Source of the DNA: Singulisphaera sp. GP187
GTDB lineage: Bacteria > Planctomycetota > UBA1135 > UBA2386
Direction: 5' to 3'
Length of the DNA stretch: 41,311 nt
Assembly: GCA_945871815.1 (NCBI GenBank)
Contig: CAMBXM010000014.1
Location: 1-41,311, forward strand
Numbering within the stretch: position 1 is the first letter of the stretch; each line of letters opens with the position of its first letter. A program made the translations under genes and the position numbers. The notes below the pieces were generated by a model that searched no databases, was not told where the DNA came from, and saw only the letters and a list, made by a program, of their open reading frames with translations. This document shows, piece by piece, positions 6,384-27,650 of the stretch.

Positions 6384-8054
6384 TCAGCGCGCCAGAGCCT
6401 TGCTACTGAGCCAGCGTCCAGGCCGCGCCGTCGTTCCACTGCCGTCGCGCACGACGAGTTCCCCGTTGACGACAACGTGCACGATGCCGGTCGGGTAGCG
6501 CTGCGGCTCGGCGTAGGTCGCCTCATCACGCACCGTCGCCGCGTCGAACACCACGACGTCGGCAAAGCCCAGAACGGCGATGCGGCCGCGACCCGCGAGT
6601 CCGGCTCGATCGGCCGGCATCGCTGTCATCTTGCGGATCGCGGTCGGCAAGTCGAAGAGCCCTTCGTCGCGGCAATAGACTCCTAGAACGCGCGGAAAAG
6701 TCCCGTACGAGCGCGGATGCGGTCGTTCGAGGACACGCCCCGTAGGCGCCATGCTGCGGCCGTCGGAGCCGACCATCACGAGCGGGTGCGCAAGCACGCG
6801 CGCGACGCCTTCCTTCTGCATGCCATGGCCGATGAACGACACGTCGGCATTGCTGGCCTCGAGAAGGCGCATGTATGCCTCGGCTGCATCGACCTTCCAC
6901 ACCGCAGCAATCTCGGCGAGCGACCTACCGACGCAGACTTCGTGGTCCTTCGCCGTCACGGCGGCGATGACGACGAGCTCGAAGCCACCCGGGTCGCTTT
7001 GTACATGGGGGCCGAGTTCGTCGCGCATGCGCGAACGCAGCGCTTGGTCCTGCAAGCGCCCGACGATCGCCTCGCTCCCGCCCTCTCGCGACCACGGCTC
7101 CAGCAAGATCGTCAGAGTCGTCGAGTAGGCCGTGTACGGATACGCGTCGGCCATCACGTCGACGCCGGCTTGGCGGGCGTTCTCGATCCGAACGATCGCC
7201 TCGTCCAGCAGCTTCCAGTTGTCGCGCCCACACGCTTTCAGATGTGAGATCTGCACGCGGACGCCGGTCTTACGACCAACCTCGATGGCTTCGTCGACGG
7301 CCTCGAGCAACCGATCCTCTTCGCTGCGCATGTGCGACGCGTAGAGCCCACCACGCGCCGCCACCGAACGCGCGAGGTGCTCGATCTCCTCGGCAGGCGT
7401 GTAGATGCCCGGGACGTACTCCAGTCCGGTCGAGAGCCCGATCGCCCCTTGGTCGAGCGCGGTCTCCAGCAACTGCGTCATGGCTGCGAGTTCGACCGTC
7501 GTCGCTCGGCGATCGACCGCTCCGAGCACGGCGCGACGAAGCGTGCCGTGACCGACCAGCAGCGCGTGATTGAGGGCCGGGTCCGCGCTTGCCCAGGCCG
7601 CCGCGTACGAGCGAACATCGGTCCAGCGCGGCGTCACACTTCCGGCATCTTCCTCGTCACCCTCCTGCCGCGGCGCCGCCGAGCCGCCGCAGTTGCCGGT
7701 GATCTCCGTGGTCACGCCTTGGCGAACGCGGCTCTCGGCACCGGGGTGGCGAAAGATCGACGAGTCGGAGTGCGTGTGCACATCGACAAAGCCAGGCGCC
7801 ACCACGAGACCGCGCACGTCGAGCGTGGTGCTCGCGTCGCTGGCGTCGTAGCTACCGATCCCGACGATGCGGTCACCGACGATGGCAACATCGGCCACGA
7901 AAGCAGGGCCGCCGCTGCCGTCGATGACTGAGCCACCCCGCAGCAAGAGGTCGATGGGTTGGCCCTTCTGCAAACCCTCCGTTCGAGCCACAGCGCAGGC
8001 GGCGGCGAGCAGCGAAGCGCCGAGGAAGAGCTGACGACGATCGATCCACTTCAT
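6384..8054 (-). CDS. N-acyl-D-amino-acid deacylase, predicted lipoprotein
   Basis: 556 residues. Amidohydrolase superfamily enzyme that hydrolyses N-acyl-D-amino acids to the free D-amino acid and a carboxylate. Residues seen: the metal HxH (His93, His95 in DVHTHSD), the family Cys122 in TGNCGG that bridges or binds zinc, histidines in YASHMRSEED and VQISHLKACG, the Asp in VGSDGRSM, and the D-aminoacylase signature HPRSYGTFPRVLG. The N-terminus carries a twin-arginine-like RRQLFL followed by a hydrophobic run to a lipobox (LAAAC, Cys20), so export by Tat and lipid anchoring are likely. The start codon forms a 4-base ATGA overlap with the epimerase stop, so the two are translationally linked. 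It could also act on other N-acyl or D-configured substrates such as dihydropyrimidine-like amides, but the signature favours D-aminoacylase. Confidence 0.9.
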   Translation of the reverse strand: MKWIDRRQLFLGASLLAAACAVARTEGLQKGQPIDLLLRGGSVIDGSGGPAFVADVAIVGDRIVGIGSYDASDASTTLDVRGLVVAPGFVDVHTHSDSSIFRHPGAESRVRQGVTTEITGNCGGSAAPRQEGDEEDAGSVTPRWTDVRSYAAAWASADPALNHALLVGHGTLRRAVLGAVDRRATTVELAAMTQLLETALDQGAIGLSTGLEYVPGIYTPAEEIEHLARSVAARGGLYASHMRSEEDRLLEAVDEAIEVGRKTGVRVQISHLKACGRDNWKLLDEAIVRIENARQAGVDVMADAYPYTAYSTTLTILLEPWSREGGSEAIVGRLQDQALRSRMRDELGPHVQSDPGGFELVVIAAVTAKDHEVCVGRSLAEIAAVWKVDAAEAYMRLLEASNADVSFIGHGMQKEGVARVLAHPLVMVGSDGRSMAPTGRVLERPHPRSYGTFPRVLGVYCRDEGLFDLPTAIRKMTAMPADRAGLAGRGRIAVLGFADVVVFDAATVRDEATYAEPQRYPTGIVHVVVNGELVVRDGSGTTARPGRWLSSKALAR

Positions 8055-9112
8055 GATGGCACCGGCAATGCGCCCAGCCCTGGACGCGACAAGGTGGACA
8101 TGCGGCCTTCGCGAATGGCAAAGCCGCCTTCGTACGGATCGGCCGCCAGATCGAGGCTGCCGTCAAGGTCGAGGAAGCGCGTGGCGTTGCATGCGAACGC
8201 GGTGTGCAGCGCCGCGGCGATCCCGAGCGCACTTTCGTCATTGCAGCCCCACATGATCGCAAGGCCATGGCGTTCGCAGGCGCGCGCAAGGCGCAAAGCG
8301 GCGCGCGGTCCGCCGCACTTCTGCAGCTTGATGTTGACGACTCCGAACGGACAGCCGGCGGCGACCAACTCGTCGAGGGCGCGTTCGTCATGCACGCTCT
8401 CGTCGGCGCACAGCATGAGCTGCACATGGCGGGGCAACGTGCGCAAGAACGACTCCTGCCCCCGAGGCATCGGTTGCTCGATCATCTCGAGGTCCAGGTC
8501 GTTGGCTCGCGCCGCGAGCCGCAACATAGCGCGTTCGTCGTAGCCCTGGTTGGCGTCAGCACGCAACTGCACGCGGGCGCCGAAGCGCTCGCGCAGCCGG
8601 GTGAGCCGTTCGAGGTCGAGGTCGATCGACTCGCCAATCTTGACCTTGAGCGCGGTGAAGCCACGCGCGACGTACTCGTTCGCTTCCAGAAGCGTCTCGG
8701 CCACCGGCTTGCAGCCGATCGTGATCGAAGTCGCGAGATGCGCGTGCACCCGGCCGAAGTGCTCGACCAGCGGCAGCGCCCGCCGGCTTGCGCCGAGATC
8801 GCACAAGGCCATGTCGATCGCCGCACGCGCACCGGGGCCAGCAACGCGCTGCTCCAAGTCCACCACCACCGCGGCGTCGTCCAGGTCGCGCCCGACTAGC
8901 CACGAGGCCCTGCGCAACTCGGCGAGCGCAGCGTCGCGCGTTTCCCCCGTGACCTCGACTGCGGGCGCGGCCATTCCGTGCCCTTGTTGACCGTCATCAC
9001 CGCGCACGATGACAAAGGCCAACTCCACCGCGTCCCAGTGCCCGTTGGCAATCGCGTACGGCCGCGACAACGGCACGTCGAAGGCGCGCGCCGATACGGT
9101 CGCGATCCTCAT
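8051..9112 (-). CDS. enolase-superfamily epimerase (dipeptide epimerase / DgcA-like)
   Basis: 353 residues, full length for the muconate-lactonizing subgroup. It should invert the alpha-carbon of a dipeptide or N-acyl amino acid through a Mg-stabilised enolate. Seen: catalytic KxK (Lys156, Lys158 in ALKVKIG), metal ligands Asp186 (RADANQGY), Glu212 (IEQPMPRG) and Asp237 (CADESVHD), second-side catalytic Lys262 (NIKLQKCGG), and a C-terminal LDLDG matching the DxD that holds the substrate amino group in dipeptide epimerases. Start at 9112 chosen because ATG overlaps the DUF1611 stop (ATGA); the open frame upstream lies antisense-free but under DUF1611. Next to DUF1611, the known precedent is DgcA, which racemises N-acetyl-D-glutamate. 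An Ala-Glu or other dipeptide epimerase is the alternative. Confidence 0.88.
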   Translation of the reverse strand: MRIATVSARAFDVPLSRPYAIANGHWDAVELAFVIVRGDDGQQGHGMAAPAVEVTGETRDAALAELRRASWLVGRDLDDAAVVVDLEQRVAGPGARAAIDMALCDLGASRRALPLVEHFGRVHAHLATSITIGCKPVAETLLEANEYVARGFTALKVKIGESIDLDLERLTRLRERFGARVQLRADANQGYDERAMLRLAARANDLDLEMIEQPMPRGQESFLRTLPRHVQLMLCADESVHDERALDELVAAGCPFGVVNIKLQKCGGPRAALRLARACERHGLAIMWGCNDESALGIAAALHTAFACNATRFLDLDGSLDLAADPYEGGFAIREGRMSTLSRPGLGALPVPS

Positions 9113-10185
9113 CGAGCCCGCTCGCTCTCGATGTAGCCGAGGACCGCGTCCATCGCGCGCTCGGCACCATCGATCAGCGGATAGAACGCTGTGAGCCCGG
9201 TCTCGCCTTCGATGCGTTCCTTGTGCGCAACGCGCGCAGAAGCGTCGAGGTGTTCGTGGTTGAGCGAAATCGCCAGCACGCGCGAGCCGTACATCCGGAT
9301 CAGCTCGAGTTCGGAAGTCAGCGACGGGATCTCGTGGTGCAGGTGCTCTTGGTCGTCGAAGAACTTCCGCGCTGGCGCGTGCTGCAAGATCACGCCGCGC
9401 GCGCCGCCCGAAAGCATCAACTCGGCGCCGCATGGGCCCGACGGATTGCGCAGTGCCGACTGGCCTTCGAGCAGGATCAACGACGGCCGCAGTTCGCGGT
9501 CGCACGAGACGATTGCGTGCTCCAGTTCGCCGGAGACGAAATCGTTGGCCGTCGAGTCGAGCACGAAACCAAAACGCGAACCCTGCAGCCAACCCGTCTG
9601 CCCGGTGTAGACCATCTCGGCAGTGAGGCCGCGGCGGCGCATGGCGGCGGCGATCACCTGACAGGTCGTACGCTTGCCGAGCGCGCAGTCGGTGCCGAGC
9701 ACGGCGATCCGCGGCGCCGTCACCTGATGGATCGCGCCGCTCCAGAAGTGAATCTCACTGCGGTGCTTTGGCCGACGGATGTCGACGATGGCAGCACCAC
9801 TGCGCGCCGCCGCGGTCACGAGTTGAAGATCGTCGCTGACGAAGTCGTGCAGCCCGTTCGCGACGCTGATGCCGCGCTCGAGGGCCTGGTACAGAATCGG
9901 CTTCATGCCCGCAGGCAGCACGCCACCTGGTGTCGCGACGCCGACGACCAGCCACTGCGGCGCCGCACCGCTGTGCAGCAGCGTGTCGAGGTCGGCGACC
10001 ACCGGGATGCCGCGGTGCAAGCCGTCGAGCACGGTGCCCGCATCCTGACCCGAGCTAGCAGCATCGATCACCGCGGTGATGCGGAAGCGACTCGGGCCGC
10101 GCACCAGTCCGTGCGCAGTCTTCGCGTTGGAGGTGGTGAACTGACCGTGGGTCAGGATCGCGGCGGTGTCGGCCATTTGGCCCAT
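9109..10185 (-). CDS. DUF1611 P-loop protein (DgcN-like)
   Basis: About 358 residues. An N-terminal Rossmann-like domain (GLVRGPSRFRITAVIDAASS, near residues 27-46) is followed by a P-loop NTPase-like domain with the Walker-A-like GTDCALGKRTT (about residues 164-174), VYTGQTGWLQG, and ILLEGQSAL. This is DUF1611. A member called DgcN was described as a D-glutamate N-acetyltransferase working with DgcA. The gene is first in a three-gene unit with ATGA overlaps. The start is unclear: ATG at 10185 fits homologue N-termini; ATG at 10176 and GTG at 10215 are alternatives and none has a good Shine-Dalgarno. Family call is strong, reaction by analogy only. Confidence 0.87.
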   Translation of the reverse strand: MGQMADTAAILTHGQFTTSNAKTAHGLVRGPSRFRITAVIDAASSGQDAGTVLDGLHRGIPVVADLDTLLHSGAAPQWLVVGVATPGGVLPAGMKPILYQALERGISVANGLHDFVSDDLQLVTAAARSGAAIVDIRRPKHRSEIHFWSGAIHQVTAPRIAVLGTDCALGKRTTCQVIAAAMRRRGLTAEMVYTGQTGWLQGSRFGFVLDSTANDFVSGELEHAIVSCDRELRPSLILLEGQSALRNPSGPCGAELMLSGGARGVILQHAPARKFFDDQEHLHHEIPSLTSELELIRMYGSRVLAISLNHEHLDASARVAHKERIEGETGLTAFYPLIDGAERAMDAVLGYIESERAR

Positions 10186-10263: not shown

Positions 10264-13200
10264 TCAACGCGCCGGCAACCGCAGCTCGATGTCGCCCTTG
10301 GTCTTGCCACCCTCGACGTCGACCTCGACCTCGGGTCCGAACTGGCTGCCGCCGCCGCCGAGCGGTTGGGCCTGCAGCAGGTAGCGCCCGGCCGCGAGAC
10401 CCGCAAAGGTGAACGAACCGGTCATCGCCGGCTGACGCTCTGGCTCGGCATCGGCGCGAGCGGCCGCACGACAGCTGACGAGCACCATGCGCACGGGCTT
10501 GCCGTCGGCGTCCAGCACGCGACCGCGAATGCGACCGGCGGTGTCGAGCTGCACACGCCCGACGTCGGTCGTCGCATTCTCGAGGACCTCCTGGTCGGCG
10601 ACTTCGCGCTTGGCATAGCGATCGTGCGAGATGCGCACGATGTAGCGACCGGGCGGCACGTCTTCGAGCGCCACCTCGCCATCGACGTCGGTCAGCGCGC
10701 GTTGTCCACCCAGCGTCATCGTTGAAGTCGAGGCATTGCCATCGCTGTCGCCGCTCACGGTCATGCTGACCATCATCATCTGCGGCCGCCGCGGTGGTTT
10801 CGGCGCACCGGGAGCGGCTGCTTCGATCAGCTCGATGTCGGCGCCCTCGATCGGCTGCCCGGCGGGATCGACGACCACCAAGGTCATGCGCCCGTGGCGC
10901 AAGCGCAGGTCGCGCACGATCTCGACTTCGCCATCGTGGATCTCGAGATCCATGCTGTCCTTGACGAGTTGCTGCGGCTTGCCCCAGCGCAACCGATAGC
11001 GACCGGGCAGGACCTCGGTGAGCGCGTAGGCGCCATTCGCGTCCGTCGTTACCGATTGCTCGTTCAATCCAGGCGGCTCATGGTCGTCGAAGCCAACCGT
11101 GCCACCAGCGACCGCCGGAGCCGCTGGCGACAGCTCGACCTCGACGCCAGCGGTGGGACCGTTCGAACCGGTCACCACGCCATTCACCGTGGCCATCGTT
11201 GGCAAGCGCAGGGTGACCGCGGTCTCGCGCCCCGCCTCGACCACGAACGGCACGCGCGTGCTCGTCAGCGACCGGCCATTGCCGGCAATGAAGATGGGGC
11301 CACTGCCACCAGCCATCGTCTGTGTCTTGGGCTTTTGCTGCAGCACTGCCTCGTAGTTACCGGGTGGTAGCTGCCCCATGGTGCCGATGCCATCTGCCGA
11401 GGACGTGTCCTTGTGCTTCTCGGCATTCTCGCCGGCGCCAAGAGGTCCGTTGACGACGAACTCGGCAGCGACCCCGACGCCGCGCGCATCGGTGACGTTG
11501 ACACGCAACGATCCTCCGGTGCGGAGCACGAGGCGGAGTTCGATCTCACCATCGGCCGGGAGGACCGTCGCCACCGCCGTCGAACTAGCGAAACTCTCGT
11601 GCTTGCCGGAGGCCTCGGCGTCGCCGCTCGGCAAACCGGCAATGCGCGCAAAGCCGTCGGCACCCGTGATGCCGCCACCCAACTTCTCGGCCTCGCCACC
11701 GATCCGGATCGGAGAATCAGCCTCGCGGTCGATGCGCACGGCCGTGCGGATCATCGTGCCGTTGCCCTCGCTTCGCGGCTGCGGGCGCTGCAGCGTGACC
11801 TCAGCCCCGACGACCGCGTCGCCCTTTTCGTCGACGACTTGGATGCGCACCGAGGAACCAAGCTGAGCCACCAGCGCGACGCCCTCGATCTTCTGCGCCG
11901 CCGCCAGTTGTAGACCCGCACGCTCTGTCGGCCGATGCCTCTCGCCACGCGCACGCACCGTGATCGGTCCGGGTCGTACGCCGTCAATCGTGAACGTGCC
12001 GTCGGCGGCCGTGACCGCGCCGCCGCGGCGCAGCCCGCCGTCGATCTCTTCGTGACCATCGAAGTCCAACTCGACGCCGCCGGGCAGCATGTTGGCCAAA
12101 CCACTCGCCGCTTCGGCAACCGCTCGTCGGGCCGACACGCGACTGCCTGCGATCGGCTTACCGCCGCTGTCGCGCAAGACACCGCTGACCGAGCCGAACC
12201 GCGCCATCCGCATCACCAAGTTGCCGGTGCCGACCCGCACGTCGTTCGCCATCGCGCGTTCGTGCTGAGCGTGCGTCGCTCGCACCGCCGCCGTCTCGCC
12301 AGCGAGACCGCCCAGCGTGAAGAAGCCGCGCGCATCCGTGGTCGTCGCTTCTTCTTCGGCGAAGCGCGAGATCTCCATTCCGGCAGTCTTCTCGCGCCGC
12401 ATACAACCGACCTTGACGCCGGCGATGCCGACCCCGCGGTCGTCGACGACCTGTCCCGCGATCGCGTTACCGCGTCCGAGCGCGATGACCAAGTCGGTCT
12501 TCTGCTCTTCGTCGGCGACTTCGACATCCAGCACCGCGGGCAAGAACTGCGGCGACAGCGTGCGCACGTGCCAGGTGCCGGCCTGCAGCCCGCCGATCGT
12601 GAACGCGCCGGTGCTGTCCGTCGACGTCGAGGACGACAAGCCCATGCCCAACATCGATTGGTCGGCGCCGAGGCGCACGCCTTCGATCGGCTTGCCCGCT
12701 TCGTCGCGAACGACACCGGCGATCCGCGCCGGCAGCAACGTCACCAGGTCGCCGAGATCGGCATCACCGCCATCAGTCGAGAACGACTCCCGGCCCTTGG
12801 CGAGGACCAGGTGCTCGACGTCGAGCGACAGTCGACCAACGCGGCCCTTGGCCACCGAGAAGCGAAACCGTCCGTCGGCGTCAGTGCGCGTGCGGCCCTC
12901 GAACTCGCGCTCGTCGGCGAAGGCAGCGCTGCCGAGCAGTTCGTAATCTGGTGAGCTCTTCCAACTGTGCCAGCGAACCTCGACCTCGCGGCGCGGCGCG
13001 CCACTGCGGTCGACGAGCCGCCCGCTCACCAGTGCCGATGCCTCGGCCACGGCGCCCGAGGTCACGGCCGTGCGGACCGCAGTGCCAGCACCGTCCGCGG
13101 CGGGCGCCGCCTCGGACCGCAGCGAGGCCGCCACGCCGCTCGCCGCTTCGGGCGTTGTCGCCACCGTCTTTGAGGGCGCGGTCGGCGCGGAGCCGAGCCC

Positions 13201-13287
13201 CGGGTCGACGGGCGTCGAGTCGGGCCAGAACGCGTAACAGAGACCGACGACAGCGAGCAGACCGACAACGAGCAGGAGCGAGCGCAT
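10264..13287 (-). CDS. multi-domain carboxypeptidase-regulatory-like protein
   Basis: 1007 residues. A hydrophobic N-terminal anchor (LLLVVGLLAVVGLCYAFW, residues 4-21) is followed by about nine beta-sandwich domains of the carboxypeptidase regulatory-like type. Each begins with a strand of the form IxGxVxDxxGxPIxGVxV, for example GVVRDEAGKPIEGV, GQVVDDRGVGIAGV, GVLRDSGGKPIAGS and GRVLDADGKPVRMV, and ends near LxPGxYxxR (VLPGRYRLRW, VPPGRYIVRI). Such arrays are structural or adhesive modules at the cell surface; no enzyme domain is visible. The ATG at 13287 has a strong GGAGGT five bases upstream. It precedes the DUF1611 gene by about 80 bases and may or may not be cotranscribed. Confidence 0.88.
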   Translation of the reverse strand: MRSLLLVVGLLAVVGLCYAFWPDSTPVDPGLGSAPTAPSKTVATTPEAASGVAASLRSEAAPAADGAGTAVRTAVTSGAVAEASALVSGRLVDRSGAPRREVEVRWHSWKSSPDYELLGSAAFADEREFEGRTRTDADGRFRFSVAKGRVGRLSLDVEHLVLAKGRESFSTDGGDADLGDLVTLLPARIAGVVRDEAGKPIEGVRLGADQSMLGMGLSSSTSTDSTGAFTIGGLQAGTWHVRTLSPQFLPAVLDVEVADEEQKTDLVIALGRGNAIAGQVVDDRGVGIAGVKVGCMRREKTAGMEISRFAEEEATTTDARGFFTLGGLAGETAAVRATHAQHERAMANDVRVGTGNLVMRMARFGSVSGVLRDSGGKPIAGSRVSARRAVAEAASGLANMLPGGVELDFDGHEEIDGGLRRGGAVTAADGTFTIDGVRPGPITVRARGERHRPTERAGLQLAAAQKIEGVALVAQLGSSVRIQVVDEKGDAVVGAEVTLQRPQPRSEGNGTMIRTAVRIDREADSPIRIGGEAEKLGGGITGADGFARIAGLPSGDAEASGKHESFASSTAVATVLPADGEIELRLVLRTGGSLRVNVTDARGVGVAAEFVVNGPLGAGENAEKHKDTSSADGIGTMGQLPPGNYEAVLQQKPKTQTMAGGSGPIFIAGNGRSLTSTRVPFVVEAGRETAVTLRLPTMATVNGVVTGSNGPTAGVEVELSPAAPAVAGGTVGFDDHEPPGLNEQSVTTDANGAYALTEVLPGRYRLRWGKPQQLVKDSMDLEIHDGEVEIVRDLRLRHGRMTLVVVDPAGQPIEGADIELIEAAAPGAPKPPRRPQMMMVSMTVSGDSDGNASTSTMTLGGQRALTDVDGEVALEDVPPGRYIVRISHDRYAKREVADQEVLENATTDVGRVQLDTAGRIRGRVLDADGKPVRMVLVSCRAAARADAEPERQPAMTGSFTFAGLAAGRYLLQAQPLGGGGSQFGPEVEVDVEGGKTKGDIELRLPAR

Positions 13288-26017: not shown

Positions 26018-26034
26018 GTGAGCGAGCAGCTCAC
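26018..26034. terminator. possible weak bidirectional hairpin
   Basis: GTGAGC, a five-base loop (gagca) and GCTCAC, placed between two convergent genes and running into the stop of the peptidase gene. The stem is only six pairs and there is no T-tract, so a true terminator is uncertain. Confidence 0.3.
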
Positions 26035-27650
26035 AGCTTCTCGACCCAGGCCCGGAAGTCCTTGTCCAACGCCTCCAGGTCGATGCCGGCGAACGCCTTG
26101 TCGACCGCTTCCGACAGGATCTCCGCGACCTTCTTGCTGTCCTCGAAGTCGATGATCTCGATGCCCGGGATCCCGGGGACCGGCTCAGCACTCGTATCGG
26201 CTCCGTCCTTCTCCTTCTTCTTCGCGCGGAACGCTTCGATGTTGTCCGCGAGGTAGTTGAAGTAGACGTCGAGGCACTTCTCGAGGCGGTCGTCCTTGGT
26301 GACGTTGCGCAGGTAGTAGATGAACGCCCAGCCCTGCGAGTACTTGAGCCCACCGTTGGTGTAGTACTCGCGCTGCGGTAGGCGAATCAGAGTGCGCAGC
26401 GGGATCAGGTCCTTCTTCTGGCTGATGTGCCGCTTCAAGAAGTCGACGCGCCAGTCGAACGGTGCGAACTTGATGTTGGTCCCCTTGACCTCGATGCCGG
26501 CGAAGTAGTCGCCGTGCCCTTCGTTGAACCACGAATGCGGCGACACGTCGCCGACCGCGAAGTGGATGTACTGGTGGAACGCCTCGTGGAACATCACCGA
26601 CCGGCAGTAGGCCATCGAGTTCGACTTGGTGACGTCTTCGAACTTGGTGAACAGGACCAACTCGCCGCTACGCGGGTTGAAGTAGCCCGCTGATCCGCGG
26701 GGCCCACCGTACTTGTAGTACTCCGACTCGGTGTCGAGCACGCGTACCGGCGAGATGGGGCGCTCTTCGTTCCGCGGCTGGAACTGCTTCACGTAGACCT
26801 TCTCGCGAACCAGCTCGAGGTCCTTGGCAATCGACTGCAGGAACGCCTTGTTGCTGCTGTTGCTCAAGAACACGTAGTGCTCGGAGTCGATCGAGTACCA
26901 ACCCGGCGTGCCGGCGATGCTGGCCTTCAGGGCCTCGCGCTTCTCCTCGCCCTTCAGCTTGTTCGGGTCCTTGCGCGAGGCCGCGATGACATCTGAGTTG
27001 GCTGGTTCGAACAGGGTAAAGGTCTGCAGACTCTTCAGATACCAGTCGTGATAGGTCTTGCTCGTTTCTTCGAAGGCCTCGTAGCAGACCCCCCACTCGA
27101 CGCCGGCCTGCTTGAAGTAAGCGATCGTGTAGGACGAGGCGCCTGAGCCAAACTCGATCAGCTCGCCCTCGAGCTTGCCGGCCTTGAACGGCTTGCGCAC
27201 CCATCGCTTGTCACAGTCCTTGAACGCGCCCTGCAGGTAGTCGTCGAACGACTTCGGGTTGAGCAGCTTCTCGAGCTCGGGGCTGATCTTGAGCTTCTCG
27301 CGCTCGGCGGCTTCGCGCGCGAGCTCTTCCTCGCTCTTCGGCTTGCCGGTCAGCGTGATCGTCGAGATGCGGATGATGGCCAGGTCGCAGAACGAGCCCG
27401 CCTGCTCCTGCTCCCACAGACCGCGCACGCGCATGTCATCAGTGTTCAGCTTCCAATGACCGACGGTGAACTTCTCCTCCGGCTTGATCGCGATCGAGTC
27501 CCAGCTTTCCAAGGTGCGGATGCTGTAACCCCAGTCTTTGATCTTCTGCACCTTGTCGAGCTTGATCTTCGACTGGGCAAGCCCTTCGACGGAGAAGCCG
27601 AGAACGGCGACGAGCGGAAGGAGAGCGAATAGGAGCGTTCGAACAAGCAT
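26031..27650 (-). CDS. exported zinc metallopeptidase-like protein with HEXXH
   Basis: 539 residues. Start at 27650 gives a signal peptide (LLFALLPLVAVLGFSVEG). An AGGA sits five bases upstream; the frame is open further but without signal. The C-terminal part carries a gluzincin site: HEAFH (His355, Glu356, His359) and Glu377 in NEGHGDYF, 17 residues later. The upstream half has a beta-domain beginning DWGYSIRTLESWDSIA. The family resembles the DUF1570-type exported proteins of planctomycetes, which usually carry the same motif. The paralogue at 23990 has lost the motif. A possible -10 lies 65 bases upstream. Confidence 0.82.
   Translation of the reverse strand: MLVRTLLFALLPLVAVLGFSVEGLAQSKIKLDKVQKIKDWGYSIRTLESWDSIAIKPEEKFTVGHWKLNTDDMRVRGLWEQEQAGSFCDLAIIRISTITLTGKPKSEEELAREAAEREKLKISPELEKLLNPKSFDDYLQGAFKDCDKRWVRKPFKAGKLEGELIEFGSGASSYTIAYFKQAGVEWGVCYEAFEETSKTYHDWYLKSLQTFTLFEPANSDVIAASRKDPNKLKGEEKREALKASIAGTPGWYSIDSEHYVFLSNSSNKAFLQSIAKDLELVREKVYVKQFQPRNEERPISPVRVLDTESEYYKYGGPRGSAGYFNPRSGELVLFTKFEDVTKSNSMAYCRSVMFHEAFHQYIHFAVGDVSPHSWFNEGHGDYFAGIEVKGTNIKFAPFDWRVDFLKRHISQKKDLIPLRTLIRLPQREYYTNGGLKYSQGWAFIYYLRNVTKDDRLEKCLDVYFNYLADNIEAFRAKKKEKDGADTSAEPVPGIPGIEIIDFEDSKKVAEILSEAVDKAFAGIDLEALDKDFRAWVEKL

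Follow-up and report, generated by a model that had tools for sequence, protein, structure and literature searches.

A coupled DUF1611–epimerase–deacylase operon in a planctomycete as a candidate system for D-amino acid salvage

What pathway would bring together a DUF1611 protein, an enolase-superfamily epimerase and an exported D-aminoacylase-like amidohydrolase in a single compact operon? The question is raised by a stretch of 41,311 nucleotides (hereafter the window), contig 14 (CAMBXM010000014.1) of Singulisphaera sp. GP187, a metagenome-assembled genome that is 87.6% complete and whose planctomycete origin, considered probable in an earlier reading of the bare letters (hereafter the sequence-only reading), is supported. 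We find that the three genes are linked across related genomes and that the DUF1611 protein and the epimerase are set apart from DgcN and DgcA, the paired enzymes of D-glutamate catabolism. The operon is related to that known pathway but very likely acts on a different amino acid, and we tentatively favor, while holding other explanations in view, a two-compartment route that would salvage, by way of N-acyl forms, a D-amino acid that is not acidic and is probably hydrophobic or aromatic. A role in D-amino acid metabolism, as originally suggested, is likely.

The minus strand carries all three genes and every feature of the operon located below. The first encodes a 358-residue protein (9109-10185) with DUF1611_C and DUF1611_N domains (PF07755 and PF17396, passing their cut-offs at 181 and 87 bits); a possible alternative start is the ATG at 10176 instead of 10185, and homologues begin at approximately the equivalent of 10176. 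The second encodes a 353-residue, dipeptide-epimerase-like enolase-superfamily protein (8051-9112; MR_MLE_N, PF02746, and MR_MLE_C, PF13378), whose nearest solved chain is 3rit at 298 bits, and the third a 556-residue D-aminoacylase-family amidohydrolase (6384-8054; Amidohydro_3, PF07969), predicted to be exported via the twin-arginine translocation (Tat) system, with 9g5m and the D-aminoacylase 1m7j as its nearest solved chains. Translational coupling through two ATGA overlaps can be read at both junctions: at 9109-9112 the DUF1611 gene ends in GCT CGA TGA and the epimerase gene begins with ATG AGG ATC, and at 8051-8054 the epimerase gene ends in CCA TCA TGA and the deacylase gene begins with ATG AAG TGG. 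Scans for promoters and terminators found nothing. A gene 78 bp upstream of the DUF1611 gene (10264-13287, minus strand), coding for a 1007-residue protein with six carboxypeptidase-regulatory-like stretches, was considered as a further member and dropped because of this gap and because another gene intervenes in a same-genus relative.

We then examined whether this linkage is conserved, surveying DUF1611 proteins in 61 related genomes and scanning genome collections, which yielded 80 named loci; genes in the GC-rich DNA were called with a codon model, and the counts are of loci rather than of independent lineages, a few loci being one contig from two collections (e.g. L036 and L065). Linkage and order proved to be conserved: among 37 adjacent DUF1611/epimerase pairs 31 share the exact 4-nucleotide overlap, as do eight of 11 adjacent epimerase/deacylase junctions. 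The DUF1611 proteins of the 61 genomes split into two score groups (approximately 220-257 versus 160-200 bits), with the window protein in the lower one, where an epimerase adjoins in all 13 relatives inspected; L036 and L044 have the deacylase in the same operon, and in L039, L040, L042 and L043 it stands head-to-head. In a tree, a DUF1611 clade separate from DgcN has an adjoining epimerase in 32 of its 34 rows. The pair occurs in Planctomycetota, Thermoanaerobaculia, Acidimicrobiales, Bacteroidota and Sumerlaeota, and the same-strand triple was recovered in L065, L068, L069, L070, L072, L074, L076, L086 and L092; in L080, from Thermoanaerobaculia, the C-terminus of a deacylase precedes the DUF1611 gene. 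The arrangement extends well beyond this contig, and a search covering part of the literature found no paper describing it.

As anchoring on DUF1611 could bias the picture, 392 genomes of the phylum were also searched from the side of the deacylase. The matches split sharply, with six above 560 bits and the remainder below 412 bits. Taking these six with three from an earlier search of the deacylase family as the close deacylases, the epimerase directly adjoins eight of the nine (the window, G001, G002, G004, G312, G399, G375 and G063), and in the ninth (G335) it lies 11.6 kb away on the same strand. Among 24 lower-scoring deacylases with flanks, one stands beside the pair (G010, head-to-head), and within 1.5 kb of the other 23 both genes are absent. 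A quick tree without bootstrap groups the co-operonic deacylases in a single clade, with 98 support in the Shimodaira-Hasegawa-like approximate likelihood ratio test. Co-occurrence without linkage is weak as evidence, a deacylase-family gene being found in 11 of 14 genomes with the pair and in four of six without it. The three-gene linkage is more than chance, because the only deacylase-family gene in the host genome at E<1e-20 is this one and because the 4-nucleotide overlaps recur.

The relationship of the DUF1611 protein to DgcN holds at the level of the family. Its score of 129.7 bits lies far below the DgcN equivalog cut-off of 480 (NCBIfam NF041892), a cut-off that planctomycete paralogues in L048 and L053 pass at 498 and 508 bits. 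A tree of 102 DUF1611 proteins sets the DgcN group off by a long, fully supported branch, although long branches leave exact placements unsure. Furthermore, one genome (G004) carries a true DgcN (522 bits) in addition to the three-gene operon, and another (G005) carries DgcN/DgcA in addition to a window-type pair; this coexistence argues for a substrate different from that of DgcN/DgcA. The model of the protein, with a predicted local distance difference test score of 93.5, has full-length structural matches by Foldseek to 2obn, 2g0t and DgcN 7xrj and partial ones to dethiobiotin synthetase, MeaB, ParA and Mur ligases. A predicted BioD-like nucleotide-binding domain holds the P-loop GTDCALGKRTT (residues 164-174; 9664-9696), within which G164, T165, D166, G170, K171, R172 and T173 are invariant in 29 homologues; this GTDxxxGKRT loop is like that of BioD. 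Such a domain sits uneasily with an acetyltransferase role.

In the epimerase the residues expected for catalysis and metal binding are intact, as the sequence-only reading had it: K156 and K158 of the KxK motif (8639-8647), the metal ligands D186, E212 and D237, the second lysine K262, and D315 and D317 of the DxD motif (8162-8170, by residue reading and alignment). This constellation matches that of the dipeptide epimerase group of the enolase superfamily. The DxD motif binds the ammonium group of a dipeptide; its use as a discriminator between dipeptide epimerases and N-acetyl-glutamate racemases was dropped because DgcA-type proteins keep it. The enzyme scores 175.5 bits against the DgcA equivalog cut-off of 400 (NCBIfam NF042940), which DgcA-type paralogues in the same planctomycete family exceed at 465 and 475 bits. 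Alignment with 1jpm, 3rit, 3jva and these paralogues gives the 20s loop as N23-G24-H25-W26 (9035-9046), lacking the Arg of Glu-specific enzymes: R24 of the Bacillus subtilis L-Ala-D/L-Glu epimerase, which binds the Glu side chain, aligns to G24, and the DgcA-type paralogues carry ISRGxR here. The Enterococcus faecalis dipeptide epimerase 3jva also has G24; presumably it prefers Tyr-ending dipeptides and 3rit cationic ones. Glutamate is hence an unlikely substrate of the epimerase, and we draw only this negative conclusion from the comparison.

The export of the deacylase is supported across its homologues. Its predicted Tat signal (7995-8054, from alignment of homologues) holds a twin-Arg motif, R6 and R7, that is invariant in seven homologues and recurs in all co-operonic homologues whose N-terminus is complete. 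Cys20, at the lipoprotein position, is likewise invariant in the seven, but the window protein has Ala at position -3 and the L092 homologue lacks the Cys; the enzyme may be lipid-anchored. Compared with the residues listed for subtype V amidohydrolases (PMC12017989), the protein has a Cys/His/His metal site, the catalytic Asp and most of the substrate-anchoring residues, retaining C122 (the metal ligand of the GNCG motif, 7689-7691), H241, H271, D431, H93, H95, K273, Y213, Y305, S311 and R448. Among the anchoring residues left, OngB Leu370 appears to correspond to R433, and no position was assigned to Leu116. In the N-acyl-D-glutamate deacylase, Arg295 binds the γ-carboxylate (PMC12017989); the matching region here falls within an unaligned insertion, and because this insertion sits where the specificity residues lie, side-chain preference is not readable. 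As a separate observation, a D-aminoacylase-like subfamily has Asp for the metal-ligand Cys (GPDGG instead of GNCG), making a non-standard subtype V site; members stand head-to-head with the DUF1611/epimerase pair (L073:6287-7918, L075:6299-7927, L078:4619-6256 and L043:2585-4201) or are unlinked (L150, L151 and L155).

In the two-compartment route that we favor, the Tat-exported deacylase would act outside the cytoplasm, hydrolyzing N-acyl-D-amino acids or peptides whose final residue is of the D-form. The freed D-amino acid would be taken up and N-acylated in the cytoplasm by the DUF1611 protein, by analogy with the action of DgcN on D-glutamate, whereupon the epimerase, using two bases and a divalent metal, would invert Cα of the N-acylated product and a cytosolic amidohydrolase would release the L-amino acid. 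On general reasoning, the external placement of a D-specific deacylase would avoid a futile cycle with the DUF1611 step. We infer every reaction, the substrate, the donor and the step order of this route; what can be read in the sequences is the gene order, the coupling, the conserved linkage, the export signals, the catalytic residues and the separation from DgcN/DgcA. A candidate for the last step is an N-formylglutamate-amidohydrolase-family gene, found approximately 30-55 bp upstream of the DUF1611 gene in L070, L071 and L072 and approximately 2 kb downstream of the deacylase gene in L069, all four loci being of one clade; the host genome has two genes of this family, in addition to M20-family peptidases, elsewhere than in the operon. 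In L092 the gene ahead of the three is tryptophanase/tyrosine-phenol-lyase-like, at 651 bits against a cut-off of 285. Both kinds of neighbor fit the proposed route. Several points weigh against it: a linked deacylase is missing from about half of the DUF1611/epimerase clade; the operon in the window has neither a transporter nor an N-acyl-L-amino-acid deacylase gene; the hint of an aromatic substrate comes from one genome and the loop comparison; the nearest characterized epimerase acts on dipeptides and the DxD motif is kept, as it also is in the DgcA-type paralogues; and the C-terminal domain of the DUF1611 protein has the look of a P-loop domain that binds ATP, for which an acetyl-CoA transferase has no need.

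Some of these points suggest other explanations. The one that survives best, though unlikely, is a dipeptide route in which the DUF1611 protein would be an ATP-dependent ligase that couples an L-amino acid or another acyl group to the D-amino acid, the epimerase would convert L-Xaa-D-Yaa to L-Xaa-L-Yaa, ordinary peptidases would finish the process, and the deacylase would be an L-Xaa-D-Yaa dipeptidase. The Methylococcus capsulatus dipeptide epimerase as nearest solved homologue, the DxD motif, the invariant P-loop and the partial matches of the DUF1611 model to dethiobiotin synthetase, MurC, MurD and a pseudomurein peptide ligase are consistent with it; however, 7xrj, a DgcN deposited as an N-acetyltransferase, matches the whole model, whereas the ligases match in part, at template modeling scores of approximately 0.2-0.36, and the linked N-formylglutamate-amidohydrolase genes suggest N-acyl over dipeptide chemistry. 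It is also rather improbable that the deacylase and the epimerase each act on imported or extracellular D-containing peptides, of peptidoglycan or other origin, with the DUF1611 step unrelated. In line with this, a NamZ-type exo-N-acetylmuramidase gene directly follows the pair in a Cyclobacteriaceae metagenome-assembled genome (L084:3438-4622), and in Bacteroidota a β-lactamase/D-aminopeptidase-like domain is fused to a D-aminoacylase domain in a protein of approximately 829 residues divergent from the pair (L089:5000-7489 and L088:5005-7491). Yet the overlaps counted above show the tightest coupling between DUF1611 and the epimerase, and the parallel enzymes DgcN and DgcA reportedly act in sequence. 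Decidedly improbable is the further idea that the DUF1611 protein of this clade is no acetyltransferase but a P-loop, ATP-using ligase of BioD/Mur-ligase-like type that would tag the D-amino acid for inversion by a dipeptide epimerase, in an ATP-driven route of tagging, flipping and release fed by the dedicated exported D-specific hydrolase. That the deacylase strips acyl groups from compounds other than amino acids, such as amino sugars or lipo-amides, its linkage reflecting general scavenging, is very unlikely: the fold family does include the carbohydrate deacetylase OngB (9kb1; PMC12017989), but one deacylase subfamily is tightly linked to the epimerase pair. Finally, the D-glutamate route of the sequence-only reading, through N-acetyl-D-glutamate with a deacylase for it, is hardly credible, since family-level homology to DgcN and DgcA stands against scores far under both equivalog cut-offs, a separate clade, true DgcN/DgcA in the same family, a true DgcN besides the operon in G004 and the missing Glu-binding Arg.

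Other gene neighborhoods of the DUF1611 family were recorded alongside. In a sister clade the gene before DUF1611, often overlapping it, codes for a PALP-family PLP enzyme (L094, L095, L098, L107, L111 and L112); the three tested are threonine-synthase-like, and in L098 and L107 a creatininase-domain protein of approximately 780-800 residues lies between DUF1611 and the epimerase. In another DUF1611 clade the following gene codes for an Ala_racemase_N protein (L054, L101, L103, L108, L110, L114, L118-L123, L125-L127, L130, L133, L134, L136, L140 and L142), which makes an uncharacterized pair seen in several phyla; two tested partners resemble the ornithine racemase Orr but, at 329 and 349 bits, stay under its cut-off of 480. 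The fusion gene of L089 overlaps an Lrp/AsnC regulator gene, and a protein encoded in the window at 26031-27650 (minus strand) has a stretch 34% identical to the HExxH-containing 538-residue protein whose gene diverges from the operon in L066 and L068-L072.

D-amino acids make up a large reservoir of organic matter that is broken down slowly. The operon provides a three-enzyme route, export step included, that can be put to the test, and it does so in organisms difficult to grow in culture. Metagenome surveys count DgcN as a marker of D-glutamate use (PMC12363236). If, as the tree suggests, some subfamilies of DUF1611/epimerase pairs act on other substrates and have other partners, DgcN-based surveys may assign function too broadly.

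Among known systems, the DgcN-DgcA pair of marine Proteobacteria and haloarchaea resembles the operon in coupling DUF1611 to an enolase-superfamily racemase in the same gene order and a D-amino acid context; the window proteins differ in their scores well under the equivalog cut-offs, separate clade, lack of a Glu-type 20s-loop Arg and an extra dedicated exported deacylase. The M. capsulatus dipeptide epimerase (3rit/3ro6), the closest solved homologue at 298 bits, has the MWGC-x-DES loop and DLDG motif in common with the window enzyme, but its 20s loop reads F23-R24-S25-I26 in contrast to N23-G24-H25-W26. With the D-aminoacylases, such as the Alcaligenes faecalis enzyme 1m7j and the Bordetella N-acyl-D-Glu deacylase 3gip, the deacylase shares the subtype V metal-binding and most substrate-anchoring residues, whereas it has a Tat signal and a longer insertion between residues 315 and 373, and it scores 226 against the NCBIfam PRK09061 cut-off of 340. 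The GlcNAc1A deacetylase OngB (9kb1) belongs to the same amidohydrolase branch; its substrate, however, is an oxidized amino sugar, a context absent from the window operon.

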